Source: a virus
IMG/VR virus record: IMGVR_UViG_3300036846_000882
Coordinates: 1-22,147 of that record
Length of the DNA: 22,147 bases
Direction: 5' to 3' (one strand)
Part shown: piece by piece, positions 3,527-20,383 of the stretch
How positions within the stretch are numbered: position 1 is the first letter of the stretch
Layout: each line of letters begins with the position of its first letter
The notes under the pieces: model-generated
Databases searched by the model: none
Told to the model about the DNA's origin: nothing
The model's input: only the letters and a program-made list of their open reading frames with translations
Translations under genes and position numbers: made by a program

Positions 3527-5101
3527 ATGCCGATTTCGTTCAATCAGATTCCCTCCAACATCAAGGTTCCGCTCTATTGGGTCGAAGTCGATCCCAGCAT
3601 GGCGGGCCTGCCGCTGCTCGGGCTGCGCGCCCTTCTCGTCGGCACCATGCTGACGACGATCGGCGATGCAACGCCCGACATTCCGATCGCCATCGGCTCG
3701 CAGGCGCAAGTCGATGCGCACTTCGGCCAGGGCTCCGAGCTCAGCCGCATGGCGCGCGCCTACTTTGCCAACAACTTCGGCAACGAGGTCTGGGCGGTCG
3801 GGCTTTCCGAGCCGGTAGGCGCGACGGCGGCGAGCGGCACCATCACCGTCAGCGCGCCGCCGACCGATGCGGGGACGATCCATCTCTACATCGCGGGCGA
3901 TCCGGTCGCGGTCAATGTCGGCGCGACCGACACGGCGACGGTGGTCGCGACCAACATCGCCGCGGCCGTCAACGCCATGTTTGATCTGCCGGTCGCTGCC
4001 GCCGCTGCCACCGACATCGTGACCTTGACGGCGCTCTGGAAAGGCATCAGCGGCAACGAAATCTCGGTGATGGTCAACTATTACGGCACCATCGGCGGCG
4101 AGATGCTGCCGCCCGGCATGCAGCTGACCTTGCCGGCGACCGGCATGCTGACCGGCGGCGCCGGCGTGCCCGATCCGACCACCACCATCGCCAACATGGG
4201 CGATCAGCCATTCGAGTATGTTGCGCAGCCCTATACGGACTCGAGCACCATGTTCGATTGGGAGGAAGAATTCGGCTTCTCCGATCAGGGGCGCTGGGGC
4301 TGGCAGCGGCAACTTTTCGGTCATCTTTTCTCGGCCATGCGCGGCACGTTGTCGGAGCTGCAGACCTGGGGCAACACGCAGAATTCCGGCATTCTCTCGG
4401 TGATGGGCTTCGAGGTCGCGAGCCCGTCGCCCGCCTTCGAGTGGACGGCGGCCTATACCGCCAAGGCCCAGCGCGCGCTCACCAACGATCCGGCGCGGCC
4501 GCTGCAGACGCTCTCGCTCAACGAAATCAAGTGCGCGCCGCTGCATCAGCGGTTCGATTTCCTCGATCTGCAGACGCTCGCCAACAACGGCATCGCCATC
4601 CAGAAGGCCGGCGCCGACAACCAGCCGATGATCGCCCGCGAGCAGACGACCTACCAGCTCAACCTCTACGGCACGCCGGACGATGCCTACGAGGTGGTGA
4701 CGACCTTGGCGACGCTCGCCAAGCTGCTGCGCAACCAGCGCGCCGTGGTCACCAACAAGTTCGGGCGCTGCAAGCTGGCCGACGACGGCACCCGCTTCGG
4801 ACCCGGGCAGGCGATCGTCACACCCGGCGTCGTCAAGGCCGAGCTGATCGCGCAGTATTCGCTCGACGAGTTCAACGGCCTGGTCGAGAACGCCGCGGCC
4901 TTCGCGGCGAATCTTCTGGTCGAACGAAATTCCACCGACCCCAATCGGCTGGATGTCCTGTATCCGCCCGATCTGATCAACCAGCTGCGCATCTTCGCGG
5001 TGCTGGCGCAGTTCCGGCTGCAGTACAATCTCGGCATCGACACGCTGATCGTCGCGCCGAGCCCGACCGGCGTCACCGGCATTCTGCCGACCGTCGGCTG
5101 A
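3527..5101 (+). CDS. L: Contractile tail sheath protein (Mu gpL-like)
   Basis: A 524-residue protein, close to Mu gpL (about 495). ATG at 3527 follows GGGAG at 3514-3518. The N-terminus (MPISFNQIPSNIKVPLYWVEVDPS) and the following LLGLRALLVGTML match the start of Mu-type sheath proteins. The inserted outer domain about residues 95-215 is Ala/Thr-rich beta structure (TVSAPPTDAGTIHLYIAGDPV). The C-terminal half contains the conserved sheath core that packs on the tube and links to neighbouring subunits (TTYQLNLYGTPDDAYEVVTTLATLAKLLRN, ending RIFAVLAQFRLQYNLGIDTLIV). Sheath subunits stack around the tube and contract to drive it through the envelope. The gene directly precedes the tube gene, as in Mu. 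Confidence 0.93.
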   Translation: MPISFNQIPSNIKVPLYWVEVDPSMAGLPLLGLRALLVGTMLTTIGDATPDIPIAIGSQAQVDAHFGQGSELSRMARAYFANNFGNEVWAVGLSEPVGATAASGTITVSAPPTDAGTIHLYIAGDPVAVNVGATDTATVVATNIAAAVNAMFDLPVAAAAATDIVTLTALWKGISGNEISVMVNYYGTIGGEMLPPGMQLTLPATGMLTGGAGVPDPTTTIANMGDQPFEYVAQPYTDSSTMFDWEEEFGFSDQGRWGWQRQLFGHLFSAMRGTLSELQTWGNTQNSGILSVMGFEVASPSPAFEWTAAYTAKAQRALTNDPARPLQTLSLNEIKCAPLHQRFDFLDLQTLANNGIAIQKAGADNQPMIAREQTTYQLNLYGTPDDAYEVVTTLATLAKLLRNQRAVVTNKFGRCKLADDGTRFGPGQAIVTPGVVKAELIAQYSLDEFNGLVENAAAFAANLLVERNSTDPNRLDVLYPPDLINQLRIFAVLAQFRLQYNLGIDTLIVAPSPTGVTGILPTVG

Positions 5102-5133: not shown

Positions 5134-5502
5134 ATGGCCCAACGATTTGCGGGCATCGCCTTCCTGTTGGTCGACGGCAACCAGATGGCGCTGCGCGGCA
5201 ATTTCACCGTAAGCCCCAGCATCGTCGCGCGCACGATGATCGCGGGGCAGGACGGAATTCACGGCTACCAAGAGCTGCCGAGAGTTCCCTATATCGAGGG
5301 CGACGTCTCGACCGTGCCCAATCTCAATCTCTTGGACCTCGAGGCCCAGGTGAACGTCACCGTTGTCGCCCAGCTCGCCAACGGCAAGCAATACGCACTC
5401 GGGCAGGCCAGCTGCAAAGCCGACCTCGAAGCCAACACTCGCGACGGCCAGGTGCGCGTTCGCTGGGAAGGCGTGACCTGTTCTGAAACCAACCTGACGT
5501 GA
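5134..5502 (+). CDS. M: Tail tube protein (Mu gpM-like)
   Basis: A 122-residue protein, nearly the size of Mu gpM (118). ATG at 5134 follows AGGAG at 5122-5126. It has the expected N-terminus for the Mu-type tail tube family (AQRFAGIAFLLVDGNQMALRGNFTV), a central GxHGYxE-type stretch (IHGYQELPRVPYIEGDV), then a run of beta strands (LEAQVNVTVVAQLANGKQYAL) ending VRWEGVTCSE. Subunits form hexameric rings stacked inside the sheath, with length set by the tape measure protein encoded just downstream. Assignment rests on sequence pattern, size and synteny. Confidence 0.92.
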   Translation: MAQRFAGIAFLLVDGNQMALRGNFTVSPSIVARTMIAGQDGIHGYQELPRVPYIEGDVSTVPNLNLLDLEAQVNVTVVAQLANGKQYALGQASCKADLEANTRDGQVRVRWEGVTCSETNLT

Positions 5503-5509
5503 GCCGCGC

Positions 5510-5914
5510 ATGAACAGACCGATCCGCGAAGGCTTCCAACCCGATCCGGCGCCGGCCGAGCCGGTGGCGACCGCGCCAGCCGCGCCGCCGGCGTCGCCCG
5601 AGCCAGAGGAAAAGTGGCCGATCGTCATCAAGCTCAGGCACCACGGACTCCGCGACCCGAGCGTGCTTGATGAAATTCGCGAGCTGCGCTTGCGGCAGCC
5701 GACCGGCGGCGACATCAATTATTGCGGCAGCCCGATCCTCATGGGCGAGAATGGCAACTTCGTCATTGACTATAAACGCATGCACCTGATGATCGCGCGC
5801 CTGGCCGGCATTCTCACCATGACCCTCGACCAGATCGACCCGCGCGACTGGCAGTCAGCCGCCTATCGGCTATTCCGTTTTTTTCTGCCAAGTGCGGCGG
5901 CTTGGGAGCCGTAG
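5510..5914 (+). CDS. Tail assembly chaperone, short (zero-frame) product (Mu gp41-like)
   Basis: A 134-residue protein between tube and tape measure genes, the standard location of tail assembly chaperones. Residues about 10-38 are Pro/Ala-rich and disordered. The folded part (WPIVIKLRHHG, LRELRLRQPTGGDI, MHLMIARLAGI) matches the Mu gp41 family, with its 'elRLReptgge'-type motif. The zero-frame product ends FRFFLPSAAAWEP. The codons FRFF cover a run of seven T, where a -1 shift gives a longer product. In Mu, P2 and lambda-type phages such paired products coat the tape measure protein during tail assembly. Confidence 0.88.
   Translation: MNRPIREGFQPDPAPAEPVATAPAAPPASPEPEEKWPIVIKLRHHGLRDPSVLDEIRELRLRQPTGGDINYCGSPILMGENGNFVIDYKRMHLMIARLAGILTMTLDQIDPRDWQSAAYRLFRFFLPSAAAWEP
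5878..5884 (+). promoter_or_regulatory. Programmed -1 ribosomal frameshift site T_TTT_TTT
   Basis: Seven T residues sit in the reading frame as T TTT TTT (zero-frame codons CGT TTT TTT CTG), the ideal X XXY YYZ slippery arrangement. A -1 slip makes the next codon TCT at 5884-5886 and opens a frame running to TGA at 6085-6087. Two candidate stimulatory hairpins follow: CCAAG (5888-5892) with CTTGG (5901-5905), and CGGCT (5898-5902) with AGCCG (5907-5911). They are mutually exclusive and modest in length. Conserved frameshifting at this gene position is established for many tailed phages. Use of this particular site is inferred. Confidence 0.85.
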
Positions 5915-6087
5915 CAGGCGACGAGAACAACCTCGTCCTCGACTGCTACTGGCTGGCGCGCTGGTATCACCAATCCCCTGAAGTCTTCCTCAACATGCCG
6001 CTCGCGGATGTGCATATGCATGTCATGCGGACGGTCCAGATCGCGCAGCTGATGCGGCAGCGCGGCGAGAGCAGCGATGGCGAGTGA
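5884..6087 (+). CDS. Frameshift extension of the tail assembly chaperone (Mu gp41/42-like fusion)
   Basis: This is the downstream frame joined to the chaperone by the -1 shift at 5878-5884. It adds 67 residues after residue 125 of the short form, giving a fused protein of about 192 residues. Its sequence is protein-like (NNLVLDCYWLARWYHQSPEV, then LPL-type turn MPLADVHMHV and a final helix VQIAQLMRQRG), as expected for the tape-measure-binding extension of these chaperones. There is no good independent start: the first ATGs lie deep inside, and the frame overlaps the chaperone end by 31 bases. It overlaps the tape measure start by 11 bases. Confidence 0.82.
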   Translation, partial: SAKCGGLGAVAGDENNLVLDCYWLARWYHQSPEVFLNMPLADVHMHVMRTVQIAQLMRQRGESSDGE

Positions 6088-8869
6088 GACCGATGAACTC
6101 CGATTGACCGTTACGCTCGTCGACAATGCGTCGGAGGGCGTCAAGAAGATTGAGCAGAGTCTCAAGAGCTTGTCCGGCGGCCAGAACGCCACTGCGTTCC
6201 AGCAGATGCGCAAGCACACGGAGGAGCTGCAGCGCCAGGTCCGGCCGCTCAGCGAGGACTTCAAGAAGGCCGGCGAGTCGGTGCTGCCGTTCGTGCGCGG
6301 CATCGGCGGTGCCGCCACCGGAATGCTGGCGTTCGGCTATGCCGCCGAGAAGGGCCTCGACGCGCTCGCCAAGTATTCCGGCGAGCTGGTTAAGCTCAAT
6401 CAGCTCTCGATCCAGACCGGAACCGGCGCTGCCACGCTCAAGAGCATGCGCGAACAGATGGAGCAATGGGGACTTTCGGCCGGACAGGTAGCGCGCAACA
6501 CGCAGGGCCTTGCGCAATCGATGTATCAGATGACGCTCGTCATGAGCCCGATGCGGCAGAAGCTGCTCGAGGGCTTGCGCGGCGAGCCGCTGCAGGCGAT
6601 GCAGGAATTCCTGGCCGAATCGAAACGGCTGGCCGAATCCGGCGATATGACCGCCTATGCCAATCACGCCGAGGAAGGGTTGGCGAAGATCACAAAGTCG
6701 ATGGAGGCCGCCGGGCTATCCCAACAACGCATCGCGGAGCGTCGGAAGCAATTTGGCGAGACATTGGGAATTCCCGATCTCAATCTGCTGAACAGATTTC
6801 AGGCGGTGACGGCCGAAGAGGAAAAGGCGCAGAAGGCGCGCGACGAGGCCGCGCAGAAATATTTGGCCTTGACGACGCAGATTGGGCAGGAATGGAAAAA
6901 AATCACGGACGCCTGGTTCAATCAAGCCATCACGTCGAGTCCATTGATGGAGTCGTTGAAATGGATCGACGAGAAGATGCAGGCCTATCTCGGCTATCTC
7001 GACAAGGTCGACAAGATCAACAAGGAGCATCCGGCGGCAACGGGACTGCAATCGTTAAATCCATGGAACAAACAAAACGAGGAGCACTATAAGGCGCTCG
7101 GCAAGGAAACCGGGGTCGACACGTCAAATCCGCTGCTCGAATGGTGGAAAGGAAGGCACGTAGCGCCGGGCGGCGGTGGCGGTGGCTGGGGCGACAAGGA
7201 GATCCCGCACATGCAGCACGGCGGCATCGTCTCGCGCGCGACGCTGGCCATGATCGGCGAAGGCGGACCCGAGGCGGTCATTCCGCTCGGCGCTCTCGGC
7301 GGCGGCGGTGACGAGCATTCGCGCGAGATGAAGGAGAACACCGAGCAGCTCAAGCAGCTCAACGACGCCTTGCACGGCATCATCTATCCCGGCGGCGGTG
7401 GTGGTGGCGCGGTCGCAGGCGGCGGCCCGGGCGGACCGGGTGGCGGCGGTCCCGGCGGCATGCTCAGCGCGCTCACGGGCGGCGGCGGTGGCGGACCGGG
7501 CGGCATCCTGGGCAGCATCACGGGCGGCGGCATGGGCGGGCTCGGCGGCATGATGCGCGGGCTCGGCGGTCTGCCGGGGTTCGGCGGTCGAGGCGGTGGC
7601 GGCGGTGGCGGCGGCGCGCCCAACGGCAGCGACGTCGGGCCCGGCACCGGCGAAGGCGCGGGCACGACGCCAGCGGTCGGCGGCGGTGGTGGTGGCGCGG
7701 TCGCAGGCGGCGGCGGTCCGGATTGGTTCACGAACTTCGTCAAGAAAACCGAAGGGTTCGAGCCGAAAGCAAAATGGGATTACGCGCAATACTCGAGCGG
7801 ATACGGCACCAAGGCCGGTTACGCGGGCGAGCCGATTACGCGCGAGGAAGCCGACAAGCGGCTACAATCGGAGCTCGGCAAGGCCGGCGCCGCGGTCGAC
7901 AAGATCAACCCGAACCTCGACCCGGGGACCAAAGCAGCACTGACCGACCTCGCCTTCAATGCCGGTCCGGGCGCGTTGAGCGGCATTCGCGGCGCCATCA
8001 AGAGCGGCGACACGGCGGCGATCAAGCAATGGTTGCCAGAGCATTTCAGAACGGCCGGCGGCAAGGAAAGCAAAGGCTTGATTGCTCGGCGCGCAGCGGA
8101 GGCGAGCTGGGTCGGAAACAAAGGCTTGGCTGGCACCGGCTCGACGCCAGCCGGCTCTGGCGTAGGCACCGAAGCAGGCGAGGTGAAATCCGTCCCGGCC
8201 AAGTTCCAGGCCGATCTAACGGCGATGACGCTGGCCGGTGCGCAGCCGCACAATATCCATCAGTATATGCTGGCGCACGGCATCAATCTCAGCGAAGCGA
8301 CGTGCGGGCAGTTCATGGCGTCCGTCGTCAAGGAGCACGGCGGCCAGCCGCCCAAAGACCCGGCGGTAGCGTCCAATTGGAATCAGTTTGGCGGCGCGCA
8401 AGGCGCTGGATATTCAGACGATCCGAACGCGATCAACATTGCCGTCAAGCAAGGCACCGGCGTCGGCGCGACCGGATCGCATGTCACCGGCGCCGTCCCG
8501 ATCAGGGACGCCAGCGGCAACATCACCGGCTATCGTGGCGTCGGAGCCAATCAGTTCAATCCGTCCGGGCCGGAACATGGGGTGGGCCAATACGGGCGCG
8601 ACGTTGTCTCCAGTCAGCCAATCAGGATAGGCGACAGGCCCGGCGAATATCATATCCGCCACCAGATCGTTGAGCCGCAGATTGCGCGCGCCGACGTCGA
8701 TCGGCAGATGACCGAGCATCGCGTCGTGGGCACCGGCCAGCTCGACGTCAACGTCAATGCACCGAGGGGAACGTTCGCCAAGGCTTCGGGCGGCGGTCTG
8801 TTCAAGAAGACCACGGTCAATCGCCGCGCCCAGATGGAAGCCGCGGCGACCTCGTCCGGGGAGGGATGA
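6077..8869 (+). CDS. Tail tape measure protein with GH24 lysozyme and possible NlpC/P60-like domain
   Basis: A 930-residue protein. Residues 1-70 (LTVTLVDNASEGVKKIEQSL) are the usual tape-measure start. Residues about 70-90 are one hydrophobic segment, and the region to about 340 is helical. Residues about 380-402 hold the common tape-measure motif GIVSRATLAMIGEGGPEAVIPL. Residues about 438-547 are a Gly-rich linker. Residues about 548-678 form a T4-type lysozyme domain: catalytic Glu559 in TEGF, Asp568 nine residues later as in T4 lysozyme, then SSGYGT with Ser in the usual Thr place, and FNAGPGAL. Residues about 725-870 contain Cys743 (TCGQFMASVV) and His802 (GSHVTG), in the order of an NlpC/P60-type Cys/His peptidase; this second domain is tentative. 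The protein sets tail length and probably opens peptidoglycan during DNA entry. Confidence 0.88.
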   Translation: MASETDELRLTVTLVDNASEGVKKIEQSLKSLSGGQNATAFQQMRKHTEELQRQVRPLSEDFKKAGESVLPFVRGIGGAATGMLAFGYAAEKGLDALAKYSGELVKLNQLSIQTGTGAATLKSMREQMEQWGLSAGQVARNTQGLAQSMYQMTLVMSPMRQKLLEGLRGEPLQAMQEFLAESKRLAESGDMTAYANHAEEGLAKITKSMEAAGLSQQRIAERRKQFGETLGIPDLNLLNRFQAVTAEEEKAQKARDEAAQKYLALTTQIGQEWKKITDAWFNQAITSSPLMESLKWIDEKMQAYLGYLDKVDKINKEHPAATGLQSLNPWNKQNEEHYKALGKETGVDTSNPLLEWWKGRHVAPGGGGGGWGDKEIPHMQHGGIVSRATLAMIGEGGPEAVIPLGALGGGGDEHSREMKENTEQLKQLNDALHGIIYPGGGGGGAVAGGGPGGPGGGGPGGMLSALTGGGGGGPGGILGSITGGGMGGLGGMMRGLGGLPGFGGRGGGGGGGGAPNGSDVGPGTGEGAGTTPAVGGGGGGAVAGGGGPDWFTNFVKKTEGFEPKAKWDYAQYSSGYGTKAGYAGEPITREEADKRLQSELGKAGAAVDKINPNLDPGTKAALTDLAFNAGPGALSGIRGAIKSGDTAAIKQWLPEHFRTAGGKESKGLIARRAAEASWVGNKGLAGTGSTPAGSGVGTEAGEVKSVPAKFQADLTAMTLAGAQPHNIHQYMLAHGINLSEATCGQFMASVVKEHGGQPPKDPAVASNWNQFGGAQGAGYSDDPNAINIAVKQGTGVGATGSHVTGAVPIRDASGNITGYRGVGANQFNPSGPEHGVGQYGRDVVSSQPIRIGDRPGEYHIRHQIVEPQIARADVDRQMTEHRVVGTGQLDVNVNAPRGTFAKASGGGLFKKTTVNRRAQMEAAATSSGEG

Positions 8870-9456: not shown

Positions 9457-10125
9457 ATGCAAAAGCGAGACGCACAAGAGGCGGCGCCGATCATGCAGCG
9501 GAGCATTACCGTGCTGCTTGGGGCCGTGCCAACGTCGGGGCGCCCAGGCGCGGACTTCCGTACCGCCTGCGACGCCCTGATCGCCAACGCGGAAAGCTTG
9601 ATCCAGACTGATCTCGCCGGACCGCCATTGCAGGCGTGTTTCGATCTTGCTCGCTCGGCCGGTGCGACCCAAGCGCAGCTCGCGTCCGTGCGCAGCCAAG
9701 CGCTGACCGAAAAACCCGTGACGATCGGCGCCAACATGATCACCGGGTCGATCATTGAAATGTGCCTGGCGACCGAAGGCCGCGTCATTGCCGACATGAC
9801 CTTCACCAGCCGGCAGGACGTCGACGCGCTCAAGCTGCAGATGAATGCCATCTTCGCCGAGGTCGAGGAATATCTCGCCGATGCGATGGATCAAATGAGC
9901 TACCGGGCAGCGGTCCAGCTGCACTCTGCCATCATCCAATATCTCGTGCAGACCGCCCGTCCGATGCCGCGCATGCTTTCGTTTGCCTTCACGCAATCGA
10001 TGCCGACGCTGGTGATGGCAAACCGCCTCTATGCCGATGCCAGCCGCGCCGACGAGCTGCTTGCCGAGAATAAGGTCGTGCATCCCGCGTTCATGCTGCC
10101 GAGCGGACAGGCGCTTTCGAACTAA
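9457..10125 (+). CDS. N: DNA circularisation protein N, C-terminal half (Mu gpN-like)
   Basis: A 222-residue protein in the same frame as the preceding half. Its end (MLSFAFTQSMPTLVMANRLY, DASRADELLAENKVVHPAFM, LPSGQALSN) is the characteristic C-terminus of Mu-type gpN proteins. ATG at 9457 has no clear ribosome binding site. ATG at 9493, 12 codons in, has AAGAGG at 9475-9480 upstream and may be the real start (MQRSITVLLGAVPT). Synteny, with gpP directly following at zero spacing, supports the assignment. Split products would have to assemble together in the baseplate to do the job of single-chain N. Confidence 0.82.
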   Translation: MQKRDAQEAAPIMQRSITVLLGAVPTSGRPGADFRTACDALIANAESLIQTDLAGPPLQACFDLARSAGATQAQLASVRSQALTEKPVTIGANMITGSIIEMCLATEGRVIADMTFTSRQDVDALKLQMNAIFAEVEEYLADAMDQMSYRAAVQLHSAIIQYLVQTARPMPRMLSFAFTQSMPTLVMANRLYADASRADELLAENKVVHPAFMLPSGQALSN

Positions 10126-11367
10126 ATGGTCGTCCGCGTCATAGATGCGCCTTCGCCGCCGCCACCGCCGCCGCCGGCTGCCTATAACATTCCGACGCTT
10201 GCGCAATCGGAGAAGGCGGTACTGATCGTCGGCAATCGCCGCTTCGAGAACTTCGAATCGGTATGGGTGCAGCTGCGCTGGACCGAGGCCTATCCGCAGT
10301 TTCGGTTCTCGACCGCCGACATTGTCGAGGTCCCCGGCCAGCCGCCGCCGGCGAATTGGCAGGAGCTGCAGTTCAAGCCGGGCGATGAGTGCGCGGTCTA
10401 TCTCGGCGGCTATCTCGCCGTTGCCGGCGTCATCACGGTCCGGCAGACCGCCTATGACAAGGAGAACAAGGGCGTCCAGCTGTCGGGGATCGGGGTCACG
10501 TGGTATGCGGCGCGCGCCAGCGTCATTCACGCGACCGGGAATTTCGACGGCAAGTCTTTCGAGCAAGTCGCCCGCGAAGTGCTCGCGCCCACCGGCATCT
10601 CGCCCAAGGTCATCGGCACGCTCGACGCGACGCCGTTTGCGCGCCTGCAGGTCGATCCCGGAGAAACGATCTGGAGCTTTCTGGAGCGAATCGCGCGCCC
10701 GCGCGGCATCATTCTCGGCAGCGACAATGAGGGGCATTTTCTTTTGATCGGCGATCACGTCGGCCAGCTGACGTCCGATCTGGTCGAGGGCGTCAATATC
10801 CTGCGCTGCCAGGCGGTGATCTCGGTCGAGAACATTTTCAACGACTACATCATTCGCGGGCAGAGCGCCGCCAGCGACGACATGAACGGCCCGCAGGCGA
10901 GCGAGCAGGAGGCGGCGGCCGGCGGAACGGCGCTGCGTTACAGCCCGCTCTTGACGATGGCCGAGCAGCCGGTGTGGAGCGTCGGCGAGCTCGCGACCCG
11001 CGCGCAGCACGAGGCGGTCTGGCACGAGGGGACGATCGTGCAGGCGACGATCACGGTGCAGGGCTGGATTCGGCCCGGCACCAATCTTCTCTGGATGACC
11101 GGCGACGACGTCATGGTCAGATCGCCGATGGCCATGCTCAATCAGGTTCTCAAGATCGAGACCGTGACCTTCACCCAGGACCGCAACAGCGGAACGCTGA
11201 CCTCGCTCGATCTGGTGGCGCCGTGGCTGCTCAAGGATCACAGCGATTTCAATCTCGGCGTGCCGGGAGCGCCGCAAGCGCCGGACAAGGGTACGCCGAC
11301 GACCACGCCAGCCGCCACGCCGCCGGCCACACCGTCAAGCGATCCGCCGCCGCTCTATCAGGAATAA
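10126..11367 (+). CDS. P: Baseplate hub protein (Mu gp44/gpP-like)
   Basis: A 413-residue protein starting on the base after the N stop codon. Mu gp44 is 379 residues. The N-terminus is a Pro run (PSPPPPPPPAAY). The following region (VLIVGNRRFENFESVWVQLRWTEAYPQFRF, then FKPGDECAVYLGG, GVITVRQTAYD) is the first hub barrel. The second part (FEQVAREVLAPTGI, ETIWSFLERIARPRGIILGS) is the gpD/gp44-type module seen in late control D/hub proteins. The C-terminal 45 residues are Pro/Ala/Thr-rich, probably a flexible tail. The hub trimer joins the tube to the spike encoded next. Confidence 0.9.
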   Translation: MVVRVIDAPSPPPPPPPAAYNIPTLAQSEKAVLIVGNRRFENFESVWVQLRWTEAYPQFRFSTADIVEVPGQPPPANWQELQFKPGDECAVYLGGYLAVAGVITVRQTAYDKENKGVQLSGIGVTWYAARASVIHATGNFDGKSFEQVAREVLAPTGISPKVIGTLDATPFARLQVDPGETIWSFLERIARPRGIILGSDNEGHFLLIGDHVGQLTSDLVEGVNILRCQAVISVENIFNDYIIRGQSAASDDMNGPQASEQEAAAGGTALRYSPLLTMAEQPVWSVGELATRAQHEAVWHEGTIVQATITVQGWIRPGTNLLWMTGDDVMVRSPMAMLNQVLKIETVTFTQDRNSGTLTSLDLVAPWLLKDHSDFNLGVPGAPQAPDKGTPTTTPAATPPATPSSDPPPLYQE

Positions 11368-11371
11368 GCCG

Positions 11372-12349
11372 ATGCACCGCGCCACGCCCGCAAATACCTC
11401 GTTCCGCGCCTACGTCGCCGGCGGCGCGCGCACCGTCATCCATCAGGCGGACGACAGCAAGCTCATGCAGGAGATGGGCGGCAATTTCGCCAAGGGCGAG
11501 TCGCGCGGCAAGGTCGAGTCGCCGCAGAACTACGGCTTTACCTCGGTCGTCATGGACGCCGACAAGGGCCAGGACGGCTCGATCAGCGGCGGTGCCGAGG
11601 GGTTCATGCAATTCCCCGGCGGCAACCGCTCGTTTGCCGTCTGCGGCGTGATGGACGATCGCCGGCATCGCCTCAAAGACCTGGAGAAGGGCGATGTTGC
11701 GATGTTCAGAACCAACAAGGATCAGCTGCAATTTCATCTCACGCAGACTGGCGGTTTCTGGACGGGGCCAACCAACAAGAAGCTGCGCATGCAGCTTGTC
11801 GACCCCGATCAACAAGGCAGCGGCAGCAGCGGCAGCAGCGGCAGCCAGCAGAAAGGGCAAAAGGCGCAGTACAAAAATAATTCCAAGAAGTATTTCGAGG
11901 CGACCAATGCCAGCCACAATCTGGTCCACGATCAAACGATCAACCACAAGAGCGGCTTGCATAGTTTTCAGCCGCCCGAGAGCGGTGGCTCCACCAGAAC
12001 CGGGAACCCGCTGGTCCAGATTTTCGGCGACAAGTTTACTAATGGCCTCGGCTACTTCATGAAACAGGTGACCGCTGCGCCGCCGACATCGTCGATGCAC
12101 GTAACGACCAAGGGGTATGTCGATAGCATCATCCAGGCGCTTGGGTTCAATCTTCCATCAATTCCCTCGCTGCCGATGCCGCCGTTGCCGCCGGGCGTGA
12201 CCTTGCCTCCGGGCGTGACCTTGCCAACGGAAACGGCAGCATCGCGGGAACCGGCTTCGACTACATGGGTCGACGCCCTTTTCCAAAGGTTGGATGCCCT
12301 CGAGGCGAGACTGATCTCGCTCGAAGCCAGAATGGGATGGGATGTATGA
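11372..12349 (+). CDS. Baseplate assembly / central spike protein (Mu gp45-like, gpV family)
   Basis: A 325-residue protein, much longer than Mu gp45 (197). Residues about 50-135 match the Mu-type gpV domain: ESPQNYGFTSVVMDADKG, AEGFMQFPGGNRSFAVCGVM, then the KDLEKGDVAMFRTNKDQLQFHL strands. A Ser/Gly linker (about 152-160) and a His-rich stretch follow (SHNLVHDQTINHKSGLHSF). The C-terminus has a Pro-rich segment with a repeated PPGVTL (from a directly repeated 17-base unit near 12195-12227) and a coiled coil (LFQRLDALEARLISLEARM) that could trimerise. The His-x-His iron site of Mu gp45 is not seen. It forms the membrane-piercing spike below the hub. Confidence 0.82.
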   Translation: MHRATPANTSFRAYVAGGARTVIHQADDSKLMQEMGGNFAKGESRGKVESPQNYGFTSVVMDADKGQDGSISGGAEGFMQFPGGNRSFAVCGVMDDRRHRLKDLEKGDVAMFRTNKDQLQFHLTQTGGFWTGPTNKKLRMQLVDPDQQGSGSSGSSGSQQKGQKAQYKNNSKKYFEATNASHNLVHDQTINHKSGLHSFQPPESGGSTRTGNPLVQIFGDKFTNGLGYFMKQVTAAPPTSSMHVTTKGYVDSIIQALGFNLPSIPSLPMPPLPPGVTLPPGVTLPTETAASREPASTTWVDALFQRLDALEARLISLEARMGWDV

Positions 12350-12854
12350 CATGGGCGACGTTCGCCTCGTCCAGCAGGGCATATTCCCCTATCAAACGGA
12401 GGTATCGGTCGACTGGCTGCTGCTTAATGACGGCACGCTCGACGAGACGCAGGAGCTCGCGACCGCCGTCATTGTCGCGCTCGGGACCGATCGCTTGGCG
12501 GACGTGAGCGATCGGCTGCCCGATCCGGATTCGACCGATCGGCGCGGCTGGTGGGGCGACATGGACGCAAATCTGATTTGGAATGCGTGGCCGATCGGCT
12601 CGCGGCTTTGGCTTCTCTTTCGCGAGAAGATCACCGGCTCCGCGGCGCAGCAAGGCTCGACCATGTCGCGCATCAAGTTTTATATTCAGGAAGCATTGCA
12701 GCCCTTCATCGATCAACGCGTCGCGAGCGGCATGGAGGTCATCGTCACGCGCCTTGATACGCAGCGCATCACGGCGCTGGTCCGTTTGTTTCGCGGCCCC
12801 AAGACCGCGATCGAACTGCAGTATCAAATTCTCTGGCAAAACATCATCGGGTAG
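12342..12854 (+). CDS. Baseplate wedge protein (Mu gp46-like)
   Basis: A 170-residue protein of the phage GP46 family. Diagnostic features are the acidic, early DVRLVQQGIFPYQTEVSVDWLLL, a typical ELATAVIVALGTDRL helix, the DRRGWWGD motif near residues 66-73 and SRLWLLFREKIT after it. The corresponding protein in Mu is gp46, the equivalent of T4 gp25, which initiates sheath assembly on the baseplate. The start is either ATG 12342 (overlapping the spike gene by 8 bases) or ATG 12351, three codons later. It is followed after 3 bases by gp47. Confidence 0.92.
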   Translation: MYDMGDVRLVQQGIFPYQTEVSVDWLLLNDGTLDETQELATAVIVALGTDRLADVSDRLPDPDSTDRRGWWGDMDANLIWNAWPIGSRLWLLFREKITGSAAQQGSTMSRIKFYIQEALQPFIDQRVASGMEVIVTRLDTQRITALVRLFRGPKTAIELQYQILWQNIIG

Positions 12855-17206: not shown

Positions 17207-17584
17207 ATGGCGGGGCCAGCCTACTACAGCGGTGTGATGAACATCTCGAAGAACGAGGACTGGATCGTCCCGTTTCTCTATCAGAGCACTGATCCGACCG
17301 GGACCATCTTCACTCCGATCGACCTGACCGGGTCGGAATTGAAGCTCGAAATCCGCGTCCAGGAGCTCGATCATGTGGCGCTGGTCTCGGTCTACTCGCC
17401 GGACCACGGCATATTCATCACCAACGCGACGCAGGGCCAGTTCACCGTCCTGATCGACCGCGAGCACCTGATCTACCTTGCGGCTGGCAGCTACTTCACC
17501 GATCTCGTGCGACTGATGCCGAACGGCTATCAGGAACGCATGTGGGAGGGTAACGCAGTCGTGGTTGAGGGGACGACGCGCTGA
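17207..17584 (+). CDS. Small beta-sandwich fibre-associated protein
   Basis: A 125-residue protein with ATG three bases after the DUF4376 gene. It follows a pattern common in baseplate/fibre adaptor proteins: an N-terminal [11 protein letters not shown] strand, then [48 protein letters not shown] and a closing [11 protein letters not shown]. This resembles the N-terminal beta-sandwich of BppU-like upper baseplate proteins. It is followed with a TGATG overlap by a collagen-like fibre, and such pairs recur in phage genomes. A role as fibre base or adaptor is inferred. Confidence 0.6.
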
Positions 17585-18573
17585 TGGCCGAGCCGCTATT
17601 CAATCTCGCCAGCGGAACGCCGCGCATCACGCTGGCGACCTATGCGCCAAGCAACACGGTGCTCACCGTGGCGCCAGAGGGGCCGATAGGACCTCCAGGC
17701 ACGCCAGGGAAAGATGGCATGCCCGGTTATCCCGGGCCCTCCGGTCCACCTGGCGCGCAAGGCGAGCAGGGGCTGACGGGACCAAAGGGCGATCCAGGAC
17801 CTCAGGGCGTTCCAGGACCGCCCGGAGGGCTCGGCGAGGCCCCGACCGACGGCGCGCTCTATGGCCGTGCGAATGCGACATGGACTCAGGTAAGCCCCGC
17901 GAGCGTCAACGCCGTCAGCAAAACCGGCGACACGATGTCGGGCGATCTCGCCGTCGCCGCTGACATCACCGCCTATCGGACCAACGCGCCGACCACGGGC
18001 GTCATCTATCTCAATCAGCCGAAGTCCGCCTACCTCTACTACGACGGCGCGAACTACCAGATGCCGAACGGCAACGTGAACGGCGTGCGCGGCCGTCTCA
18101 TGTACGTCAACGGCGACACCATGACCGCCGAGCTCGTGGTGTCGAATACGCCGTCAGGCAATCAGGTCCGCATGATCAGCGGGAACTACGGCGTCCTGCT
18201 TCGCAACGACGGCGGCAACTTCTACTTCTTGGTGACGAACGCTGGCGATCCGTCAGGAACTTGGAATAACCTGCGTCCCTTCTTGTTCAACTTGGCGAGT
18301 GGAAATGTCGCGTGCGGCGGCACGGTCAGCGCGGTCAACGGACGTCTCTGGGGCGCGAACGACTTCGCGAGTGTGCCGTCGCCGGGGGTCACCAACATGC
18401 GGCTCGCCTACGCGGGCGATCATAGATACCAGCTCGCCAACGGCAACATGGAGGAGCCTTATAGCGGATCAGTCATCACCGGCGCGAACAACCCAAGTTA
18501 CGGGTCCACTCTTCGCCATCGCTATCTCCAGTACTACATCAACGGCAACTGGTACACGGCGGGCTACGCGTGA
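17584..18573 (+). CDS. Collagen-like tail fibre protein
   Basis: A 329-residue protein whose ATG shares its A with the previous TGA. Residues 1-30 ([25 protein letters not shown]) form a short strand base. Residues about 33-86 are some 17 Gly-X-Y triplets. A fibre segment [14 protein letters not shown] follows at about 116-129, a motif repeated in other tail fibres. The remainder is beta-rich with Gly/Asn turns ([41 protein letters not shown]), ending in an aromatic tip [16 protein letters not shown]. This is the usual design of a trimeric collagen shaft with a receptor-binding head; the receptor is unknown. Confidence 0.82.
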
Positions 18574-18968
18574 TGAAGATCATCAATCACGGCTCGTGGT
18601 CGCGCTACACGCCGAGGACGGTCCCGCGGGACGTCCCGGCGGGCGTCATGTTCTGCCGACGCGACGGTGACGGCGTCGACTGGTACGACTACATCCACGG
18701 CGACGGGGCCAAGCTCGCCGGCGGCTCGGTCAAGATGACGGTCCTCGAGGGCACCGTGCGCGCGGTCAACCGTGACGCGACGGCGCTGTTCCCGCAGGGC
18801 TGCGTCGTGCTCGAGCTGATCGGCGACGTGTCGCCGAACCCGCAGGCCGCCTTCGGCGGCAAGTTCTATGACGCGAGGACGAACGCCCTCGTCGATCCGC
18901 CGCCGGCGCGGGTCGAGCCGTCGCTGACCGATCTGATCGCGCGCATCGAGGCGTTGGAGCGAAGATGA
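18573..18968 (+). CDS. Small unknown protein between fibre genes
   Basis: A 131-residue protein. ATG at 18573 shares its A with the upstream stop, like other gene junctions here; GTG at 18570 would add one residue. It is mixed alpha/beta with [21 protein letters not shown] and [23 protein letters not shown], and ends in a short charged helix ([14 protein letters not shown]). No family is recognised with confidence. Position between two fibre genes, with ATGA overlap to the next, suggests a fibre assembly chaperone or accessory subunit. A ligand-binding small fibre protein is equally possible. Confidence 0.55.
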
Positions 18969-20383
18969 GCGGCCCGACGATCTCTCTCACCGTCCCGCAG
19001 ACCGGCCCGGCCGGGCCGATAGGTCCGCCCGGACCGCCTGGCCCGCAGGGAACGCCCGGGCCGCCGGGCAGCTCCGGCGGGCAGGGCGAGCAGGGCGAGC
19101 CCGGTACGCAGGGTCCTGCCGGCCCGCAGGGTGACGCCGGGCCGCCGGGGCCGGCGGGGCCGCAGGGACCGCAGGGGACGCCGGGCACTGGCGGCGGCAG
19201 CAGCGTCTATGTGTCGGACACGGCGCCGACCGGGGTGCCCGACAACTCGCTCTGGTGGGAGAGCGACTCGGGCCTCCTTTACGTCCGCTACAACGACGGC
19301 GACAGCAGTCAGTGGGTCGTCGCGGTGCCGACGCCGACGCTCGGCGCCTTCCTGCTGAAGTCCGGCGACACGATGACCGGGCCGCTCGCGCTCGCGGCCG
19401 ACCCGACGACGGCGCTTCAGGCGGCGACCAAGCAGTACGTCGATCACACCCCTGCGCTCAACAACGTCGGGCGCAATCTGCTGCACAACCCGCTCTTCAA
19501 CGTCGCGCAGCGCGGGGCGGGAGCGTGGACGACCAACGCTGCATATACTGCTGATCGCTGGCAGGCGTATCTCAATCTTGATACCGTGAACGTCACGCTC
19601 GGGCCGTTCAACGATACCCAGCGCGCCGCCATCGGCGACGAGGCGGCAACCACCGCGCTGATCTACGCCGTCGCAGGAAATGCCGGGGCGGCGTCGTACT
19701 CGTTTATCTCACAGAAGATCGAGGGCCTTCGTCGTCTGTCCGGGAAGACAGTGACGGTGAGCCTCTGGGCTTATGCGACTGCCGGCACTCCGAAGATCGG
19801 CATTGGATTTCAGCAGCTGCCCGGAACTGGCGGCTCGCCATCGGGCGGAAGTGCGGTCAACGCGACGCCGATCACGCTGACTACGACGCCGACGCGATAT
19901 AGCGCGACGTTCACGCTGCCGAGCGCCGCCGGCCTGACGCTCGGCACGAACGGTGACGACGCGACCTGGTTAAAGATATTCTTCAGCAGCGGAGCAACGG
20001 CCAATGCAAGTGCCGGCGGCATCGGTGTTCAGAACAACACATTTGTGCTCTGGGGCGTCCAGCTCGAGGTCGGCTCGGTCGCGACGCCGCTCGAGAAGCC
20101 CGACCCGCAGCAGGACTTGGCGAAGTGCCAGCGGTTCTATTGCACCGGGGGTTTTTATGTCGGCGGCTATGGCACCGCCGGGATGGCCGTACAGACCACG
20201 GTGAGCCTTCCCGTCACGATGCGCGGGGCGATGACTATGACACCAAGTTTCTCTATCCAAACGAATTGCGGATCGAGCAGCATGACGGCGCTGTCGCAGA
20301 AGGATTGGTATGCCCAGACGACAGTGACTGCGACAGGTGGCTATGCTCTAGCCGCCAACTACACAGTATCGGCGGACCTCTGA
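18965..20383 (+). CDS. Collagen-like tail fibre with receptor-binding C-terminal domain (paralogue 1)
   Basis: A 472-residue protein starting in an ATGA overlap. Residues about 14-78 are about 21 Gly-X-Y triplets. Then follow [25 protein letters not shown] (a short fibre domain seen in many phage fibres), the repeat [30 protein letters not shown], and the head domain beginning [22 protein letters not shown] ... YTADRWQ. The C-terminal half is jelly-roll-like beta sequence, with a segment [22 protein letters not shown] typical of carbohydrate-binding fibre tips, and ends VSADL. It is paralogous to the next gene from the VDxxPALxNVGRNL motif onward, including one nearly identical 91-base stretch. 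It probably determines host range. Confidence 0.82.
20050..20140 (+). repeat. Direct repeat copy 1 (fibre tip segment)
   Basis: These 91 bases match 21207-21297 at 88 of 91 positions by eye, including the coding stretch for [20 protein letters not shown]. The match is at nucleotide level, far above the surrounding similarity of the two paralogous fibre genes. This indicates recent duplication, conversion or a recombination anchor. Confidence 0.9.

Follow-up and report, generated by a model that had tools for sequence, protein, structure and literature searches.

In phage T4, gp5 is a lysozyme built into a contractile-tail injection machine, to which it brings one activity. It is named as the lysozyme of the baseplate hub (PMC1796659), not of the tape measure. 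Muralytic domains used in genome entry have also been described inside tape measure proteins, in mt3 of phage TM4, pb2 of phage T5 and phiIPLA35 (PMC1796659, PMC6116005), and the TM4 tape hydrolase helps the infection of stationary cells (PMC1796659); in the portions of these reports at hand, each tape carries one activity. Related Bacillus tapes differ in their peptidase and transglycosylase domains, and in Basilisk-like phages different wall modules (M23, or a lytic transglycosylase with LysM) likewise occupy the same tape region; these phages have Gram-positive hosts, and the available part of that report describes neither a pairing of one module of each kind nor a shared joint linker (PMC6145125). 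Among enterococcal tail lysins, according to the accessible text, GH23 lies in the tapes, and other proteins of the tail module carry NlpC/P60 with M23 or lysozyme, the NlpC/P60 being on the neighbour of the tape (PMC10194240). Additionally, excerpts of two further reports describe tape repeat duplications without wall domains (PMC3271669) and a putative endolysin that belongs to TIGR02594 (PMC5418858).

Here we analysed a window of 22,147 nucleotides, which is the whole stretch of viral DNA recorded as IMG/VR IMGVR_UViG_3300036846_000882 (positions 1 to 22,147). In contrast to the enterococcal arrangement, its tape measure protein holds both predicted wall modules, and, unlike the TM4, T5 and phiIPLA35 tapes, its family appears to combine two chemistries that are exchanged as cassettes. 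We consider it very probable that this is a Mu-type tape with a predicted GH24 muramidase and a predicted cysteine amidase/peptidase serving entry, swapped among relatives as complementary cassettes. Listings of the open-licence literature yielded no description of the one-of-each pattern, of the linker or of complementary tandem tapes.

The tape measure gene (6077..8869, + strand) encodes 930 amino acids and was assigned from its translated open reading frame and from matches to the tape-measure PHROGs phrog_1535 (1.4e-8) and phrog_2276 (1.6e-4). PHROG matches place the sheath gene (3527-5101), the tube gene (5134-5502) and a tail protein in the chaperone position (5510-5914) upstream of it, and baseplate-hub genes downstream, which is the Mu-type order of sheath, tube, chaperone position, tape and hub. 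Among the matches listed, the sheath shares 42-46% identity with 15 phage relatives, and the named phages include those of Paraburkholderia, Salmonella, Shigella and E. coli, at up to about 46%. When the sheath was searched against genome contigs, nine relatives were retrieved at 54-69% identity, all of them Bradyrhizobium loci; by these sequence comparisons, the phage is a Mu-type contractile-tail myophage whose nearest relatives among sequenced genomes are soil Bradyrhizobium prophages, and Bradyrhizobium or a close relative is therefore its likely host. In one such locus, from Bradyrhizobium barranii (L030), the place after the sheath gene where tape genes are expected holds transposase-like ORFs (9515-12735), so that this prophage looks, by reading, interrupted. 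A run of seven T followed by C (5878-5885), near the 3' end of the 5510-5914 ORF, is likely a programmed -1 frameshift site of a tail chaperone pair; its -1 frame is open to 6087, just beyond the tape start at 6077, and in 7/7 loci checked a T-run heptamer precedes the tape by a similar distance. Collagen-like Gly-X-Y stretches were also read in the proteins of 143-1414, 17584-18573 and 18965-20383.

An earlier note on this DNA had placed a lysozyme and a peptidase at 7711-8690, downstream of a long Gly linker. This interval covers both modules, but the protein continues to 8866; the Gly-rich linker is present upstream of the GH24 module, at about residues 436-548. The GH24 module itself (residues 556-675; 7742..8101, +) matches PF00959 at 1e-14 and exceeds the curated cut-off (55.3 bits vs 22.3; 8e-16 with the module alone as query), matches the endolysin PHROG phrog_7 at 1.6e-21, and finds GH24 lysozymes as its closest PDB relatives (1.4e-5). 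Glu559 (7751..7753, +), the predicted catalytic acid, and Asp568 (7778..7780, +), a predicted catalytic residue, have the T4 spacing claimed for them and are invariant in 6/6 aligned sequences. We take the T4 catalytic pattern to be Glu, eight residues, Asp, five residues, Thr; the position of T4 Thr26 is then Ser574 in the window tape, and it is Ser or Thr in relatives. The best relative in a named phage is the lysozyme of Bradyrhizobium phage ppBeUSDA76-2 (46%). A GH24 query of viral contigs returned six loci, three of them distant and three (L133-L135, 75-82% identical) lying inside tapes; GH24 is accompanied by the same cysteine module as in the window in L133, by a canonical TIGR02594 module in L062/L135, and stands as a lone module in L134.

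The second module spans residues 705-865 (8189..8671, +). The earlier note had read it as an NlpC/P60-type peptidase from Cys743 followed by His802, and both residues are correctly numbered in the ORF translation, with Cys743 (8303..8305, +), the predicted nucleophile, in the context TCGQFMASVV, and His802 (8480..8482, +), the predicted catalytic base, in GSHVTG; Asn825 (8549..8551, +) is the predicted third catalytic residue. With the single window sequence, residues 684-930 gave no Pfam match, and Pfam NLPC_P60 did not match the cysteine region at E values up to 5. TIGR02594 reached 0.0089 (16.3 bits, under its curated cut-off of 70.55), and the baseplate-lysozyme family phrog_1259 matched weakly (0.0017). 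No match was obtained when genome contigs were scanned with the cysteine module, nor when named phages were searched by tblastn, at 0.01, with the C-terminal region. Viral contigs, however, contain close relatives that are 71-83% identical, and 12/12 members of this close family match TIGR02594 (best 5e-4). Furthermore, the Bradyrhizobium prophage tapes L023 and L031, whose modules are 38 and 36% identical to that of the window over the alignment, exceed the cut-off of Pfam CHAP PF05257 (about 3e-6 and 9.5e-6) and match TIGR02594 at 1.5e-11 and 1.1e-13; together with L026 and L028, they score from about 1.7e-11 to 1.5e-16 against TIGR02594, all under its curated cut-off.

Viral scans with the cysteine modules of Bradyrhizobium tapes gave 21 and 80 loci, from which a 62-row alignment was assembled comprising the window, 8 sequences of the close set, 4 from Bradyrhizobium and 18/21 and 31/80 from the two scans; duplicates, partial sequences and others were left out, the last to limit size. 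This alignment is continuous from 83% down to about 15-25% identity, which ties the members into one homologous family through intermediates. Seven positions are invariant in all 62 rows (C39, F42, A61, G68, H98, V99 and N121 in module numbering), and C39, H98 and N121 correspond to Cys743, His802 and Asn825. Since the three predicted catalytic residues are invariant in 62 sequences and TIGR02594 is matched by 12/12 close members, the Cys/His region is more than a chance motif.

A smaller alignment, of the 12 close members, had pointed elsewhere: CitA chains were the top PDB matches of its profile (0.0017-0.006), and sCache_3_2 matched 7/12 members (best 0.0043), as if residues 774-825 formed a Cache/PAS sensor fold (sCache_3, CitA) and the Cys and His were coincidental. 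That match spans only about 50 residues, and it vanishes with the 62-member profile, whose PDB matches are instead mostly NlpC/P60 enzymes, including MepS/Spr and CwlO (0.013-0.08). Moreover, intermediates at 36-40% identity exceed the CHAP cut-off, and the structural model described below aligns to CHAP domains and Tse1. We therefore rejected the Cache/CitA identity, which we regard as highly improbable.

An AlphaFold2 model calculated from the 62-row alignment (pLDDT 79.2, pTM 0.80) has a papain-like layout in which the Cys starts a helix, the His lies directly before a strand and the Asn follows the next strand; a previous model from the 12 close members (pLDDT 43.7), whose Foldseek matches were meaningless, was set aside. 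The leading VIA matches, among the top 50 entries listed, are nearly all papain-like wall enzymes (CHAP endolysins, Tse1/Tae1 and MepS), with Z values of 8.7 for the PlyGRCS CHAP domain (rmsd 3.6 over 122 residues), 8.0 for LysIME-EF1, 7.9 for Tse1, 7.2 for the LysGH15 CHAP domain and 7.0 for MepS, with LytE also present, although Z values of 7-9 fall in the range that VIA's own note calls common. With the same model, Foldseek returned no match at an E value of 0.001 or lower, and the fold assignment thus rests on VIA, on the bridging sequences and on the secondary structure. PlyGRCS, LysIME-EF1, LysGH15 and Tse1/Tae1 share the predicted papain-like fold, aligned over 120-130 residues; unlike the window module, the first three belong to endolysins and the last to a T6SS effector, and identity is about 8-13%. 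The fold prediction and fold search proposed in the earlier note thus support a papain-like fold for residues 705-865. In family terms, the profile matches put the module nearer to CHAP/TIGR02594 than to strict Pfam NlpC/P60: the proposed peptidase relationship stands at the superfamily level, in agreement with the papain-like model and the NlpC/P60 matches in the PDB, and falls short at the level of the Pfam family. Residues 705-865 are probably a CHAP/TIGR02594-like cysteine amidase/peptidase, predicted to cut some amide bond.

A papain-like domain might also have lost its chemistry and serve as a peptidoglycan binder or a structural plug, leaving GH24 as the sole cutter. The window sequence lies below the TIGR02594 and CHAP cut-offs, the strand that usually reads GDI in the family reads INI in the window and its close members, and GH24 occurs alone in L134, as this explanation would have it; against it, the positions around Cys, His and Asn vary across the 62 sequences but these three residues do not, and the tapes of L008, L009, L010, L011 and L012 have the cysteine module as their sole recognised module. 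We consider a non-hydrolytic module improbable.

Comparison with related tapes revealed a mosaic organization. The N-terminal part of the window tape (residues 1-310; 6077..7006, +) is 91% identical to that of L003 and 89% to those of L004/L005, with 22-30% for 14 further relatives, and the C-terminal tail (residues 866-930; 8672..8866, +) is 86% and 84% identical to those of L003 and L004, despite different central modules: GH24 is absent from both of these tapes, and L004 also lacks the cysteine module. Conversely, L002 has an N-terminal part of only 29% identity and a cysteine module of 83%. Closely similar ends around different modules, and the reverse in L002, indicate that modules move between tapes. 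At the DNA level, homology between the window and L004 genes extends to nucleotide 1599 of the gene, where the linker ends, and resumes at 2611, with the tail.

The joint at this boundary is a conserved linker (motif PNGSxVGPGTGxGAG), represented in the window by PNGSDVGPGTGEGAGTTP (7619..7672, +) upstream of the GH24 module and found in many tapes. A search of viral contigs with the linker DNA pattern recovered 37 stretches, 37/37 in tape genes of this family (with the tail in 31, the N-terminal part in 35 and one or the other in 37), and a recognised module begins 4-46 residues after the linker in 38/40 instances, the other two running off the contig. Codon identity in 29 linkers was 0.477, against 0.395 expected, a value reached in 2/1000 draws; as a sign that linker DNA drives recombination this is weak, the sequences being related. 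On these comparisons, the C-terminal half of the tape family is a cassette site for wall modules, often joined at the conserved linker.

The modules were then counted in all 107 ORFs of the fetched loci that share the tape C-terminal tail, 72 of them distinct at 95%, using seeds taken from the census tapes themselves and chosen after viewing the sequences; CYS and M15 modules were classed as amide-type. Two modules were recognised in 54 distinct tapes and one in 18. Exactly one amide-type and one other module (glycan-cutting or unassigned) was found in 54/54 two-module tapes, in 18/18 of those retrieved by sheath or linker, and so independently of any module query, and in 24/24 distinct pair types. 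Random dealing would give these outcomes with probabilities of 7e-16, 2.9e-5 and 5e-7, respectively, values that ignore relatedness and are too small because the seeds are post hoc and the tapes related. The amide-type module comes first in 36 tapes and last in 18, and CYSb+SLEb, CYSb+SLEc and CYSb+LTa are common pair types.

Not every partner is equally well classified. Members of Amidase_2, CHAP, M15_4, GH24, Phage_lysozyme2, SLT and Glucosaminidase exceed Pfam cut-offs, Pfam support for LTb is weak, and M15_c is below cut-off; M15_b (L143) has no Pfam match, and its class comes from a motif read by eye. For SLE, X26, 3D, NPGN and LTc there was no over-cut-off Pfam match, so that "glycan-cutting" is a putative class for them. 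SLE (L023, L003, L031, L004 and others) is the commonest partner of amide modules, has Glu, Glu and Asn-Arg invariant in 30/30 modules, and gave no Pfam or PHROG match with the pieces tested. A relationship to SleB/Hydrolase_2 was considered and rejected: the Glu/Asn-Arg stretch aligns, but the hhalign E value of 0.051, vs 0.036 for a glucosaminidase control, is not significant, and the name SLE is therefore only a label.

The single-module tapes followed a related pattern, with 8 amide-only and 10 non-amide tapes among the 18. All eight amide-only tapes adjoin a second tape, which carries a non-amide module in six cases and is cut by the contig end in two; of the ten non-amide singles, five are tandem partners, three stand alone (L134, L024 and L151) and two are fragments. 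Two tandem tapes were located in L008 (4327-9113), L011 (2294-7095), L012 (4354-9137), L068 (3339-7774), L069 (365-5657) and L072 (2158-7078), and 6/6 of these loci are complementary, one tape being amide-type and the other non-amide, with N-terminal parts 37-57% identical. L219 has a similar tandem tape pair.

A prediction of this pairing was written down before 265 Bradyrhizobium genomes were searched with the module-blind tail. The search gave 24 matches in 17 genomes, and 13 regions were fetched; most unfetched matches have frame lengths equal to those of census tapes, and a further three, all from one genome, are fragments of 48 residues. Three new two-module loci were obtained, namely G107 (two copies), with LTc and an Amidase_2 module (4.8e-9) that lay outside the seeds, G072, with M15 and 3D, and G174, with tandem tapes carrying M15_c and LTb; all three are complementary. 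The new lone tapes (G128, G265, G067 and G044) carry a non-amide module only, and a fragment of 176 aa in G184, which contains part of a CYSc module, was kept outside the judgement on lone amide modules. Among the complete loci examined, no amide module without a partner was encountered. Lone non-amide tapes, three in the census and four in the Bradyrhizobium genomes, mean that "one of each" is not universal, and the sequence comparisons are best described as relatives that exchange wall modules but for the most part retain one of each kind.

Such a pattern could arise without selection, if a few ancestral cassettes had spread by descent and hitch-hiking; the tapes share ancestry, and certain pair types are frequent. 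We regard this as rather unlikely, although it carries more weight than the alternatives discussed above, since the 24 subtype pairs, the occurrence of either order (36/18) and the tandem split represent different routes to the same outcome. Our preferred reading is that the pairing results from selection for complementary chemistry.

A more ambitious interpretation is put forward tentatively, at somewhat less than even confidence in all its parts jointly. It holds that the tape is a cassette platform with a joint linker, on which about a dozen module kinds are exchanged, the linker preceding at least eight of them; that an amide-cutter never occurs without a glycan-type partner; that the other cutter sits on a duplicated tandem tape where a tape is amide-only; and that SLE is an undescribed glycan-cutting family.

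With regard to mechanism, we propose that the N-terminal part of the tape would set tail length, and that the C-terminal part would carry both wall modules on flexible Gly-rich tethers. Upon sheath contraction, the tape would leave the tube into the periplasm, where both modules could act at the same spot, the GH24 muramidase cutting the MurNAc-GlcNAc glycan bond and the CHAP/TIGR02594-like module an amide bond of the peptide stem or of the stem-MurNAc link. Cutting both kinds of bond would open a local hole for genome entry. The earlier note had likewise suggested that sugar and peptide bonds are cut together during entry, and the 54/54 one-of-each pairing fits such joint cutting well. C-terminal cassette exchange would then mostly keep one amide-cutter and one other module, in one tape or in two tandem tapes.

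For this phage family, the tapes would constitute a naturally occurring library of linked wall enzymes, joint included, and they invite the question why the pair is divided between two tandem tape measures in some phages. They also suggest a testable rule for breaching the Gram-negative wall, namely that the tape brings one cut to the glycan and another to an amide bond, and this rule would predict functions for the SLE, X26 and NPGN modules.
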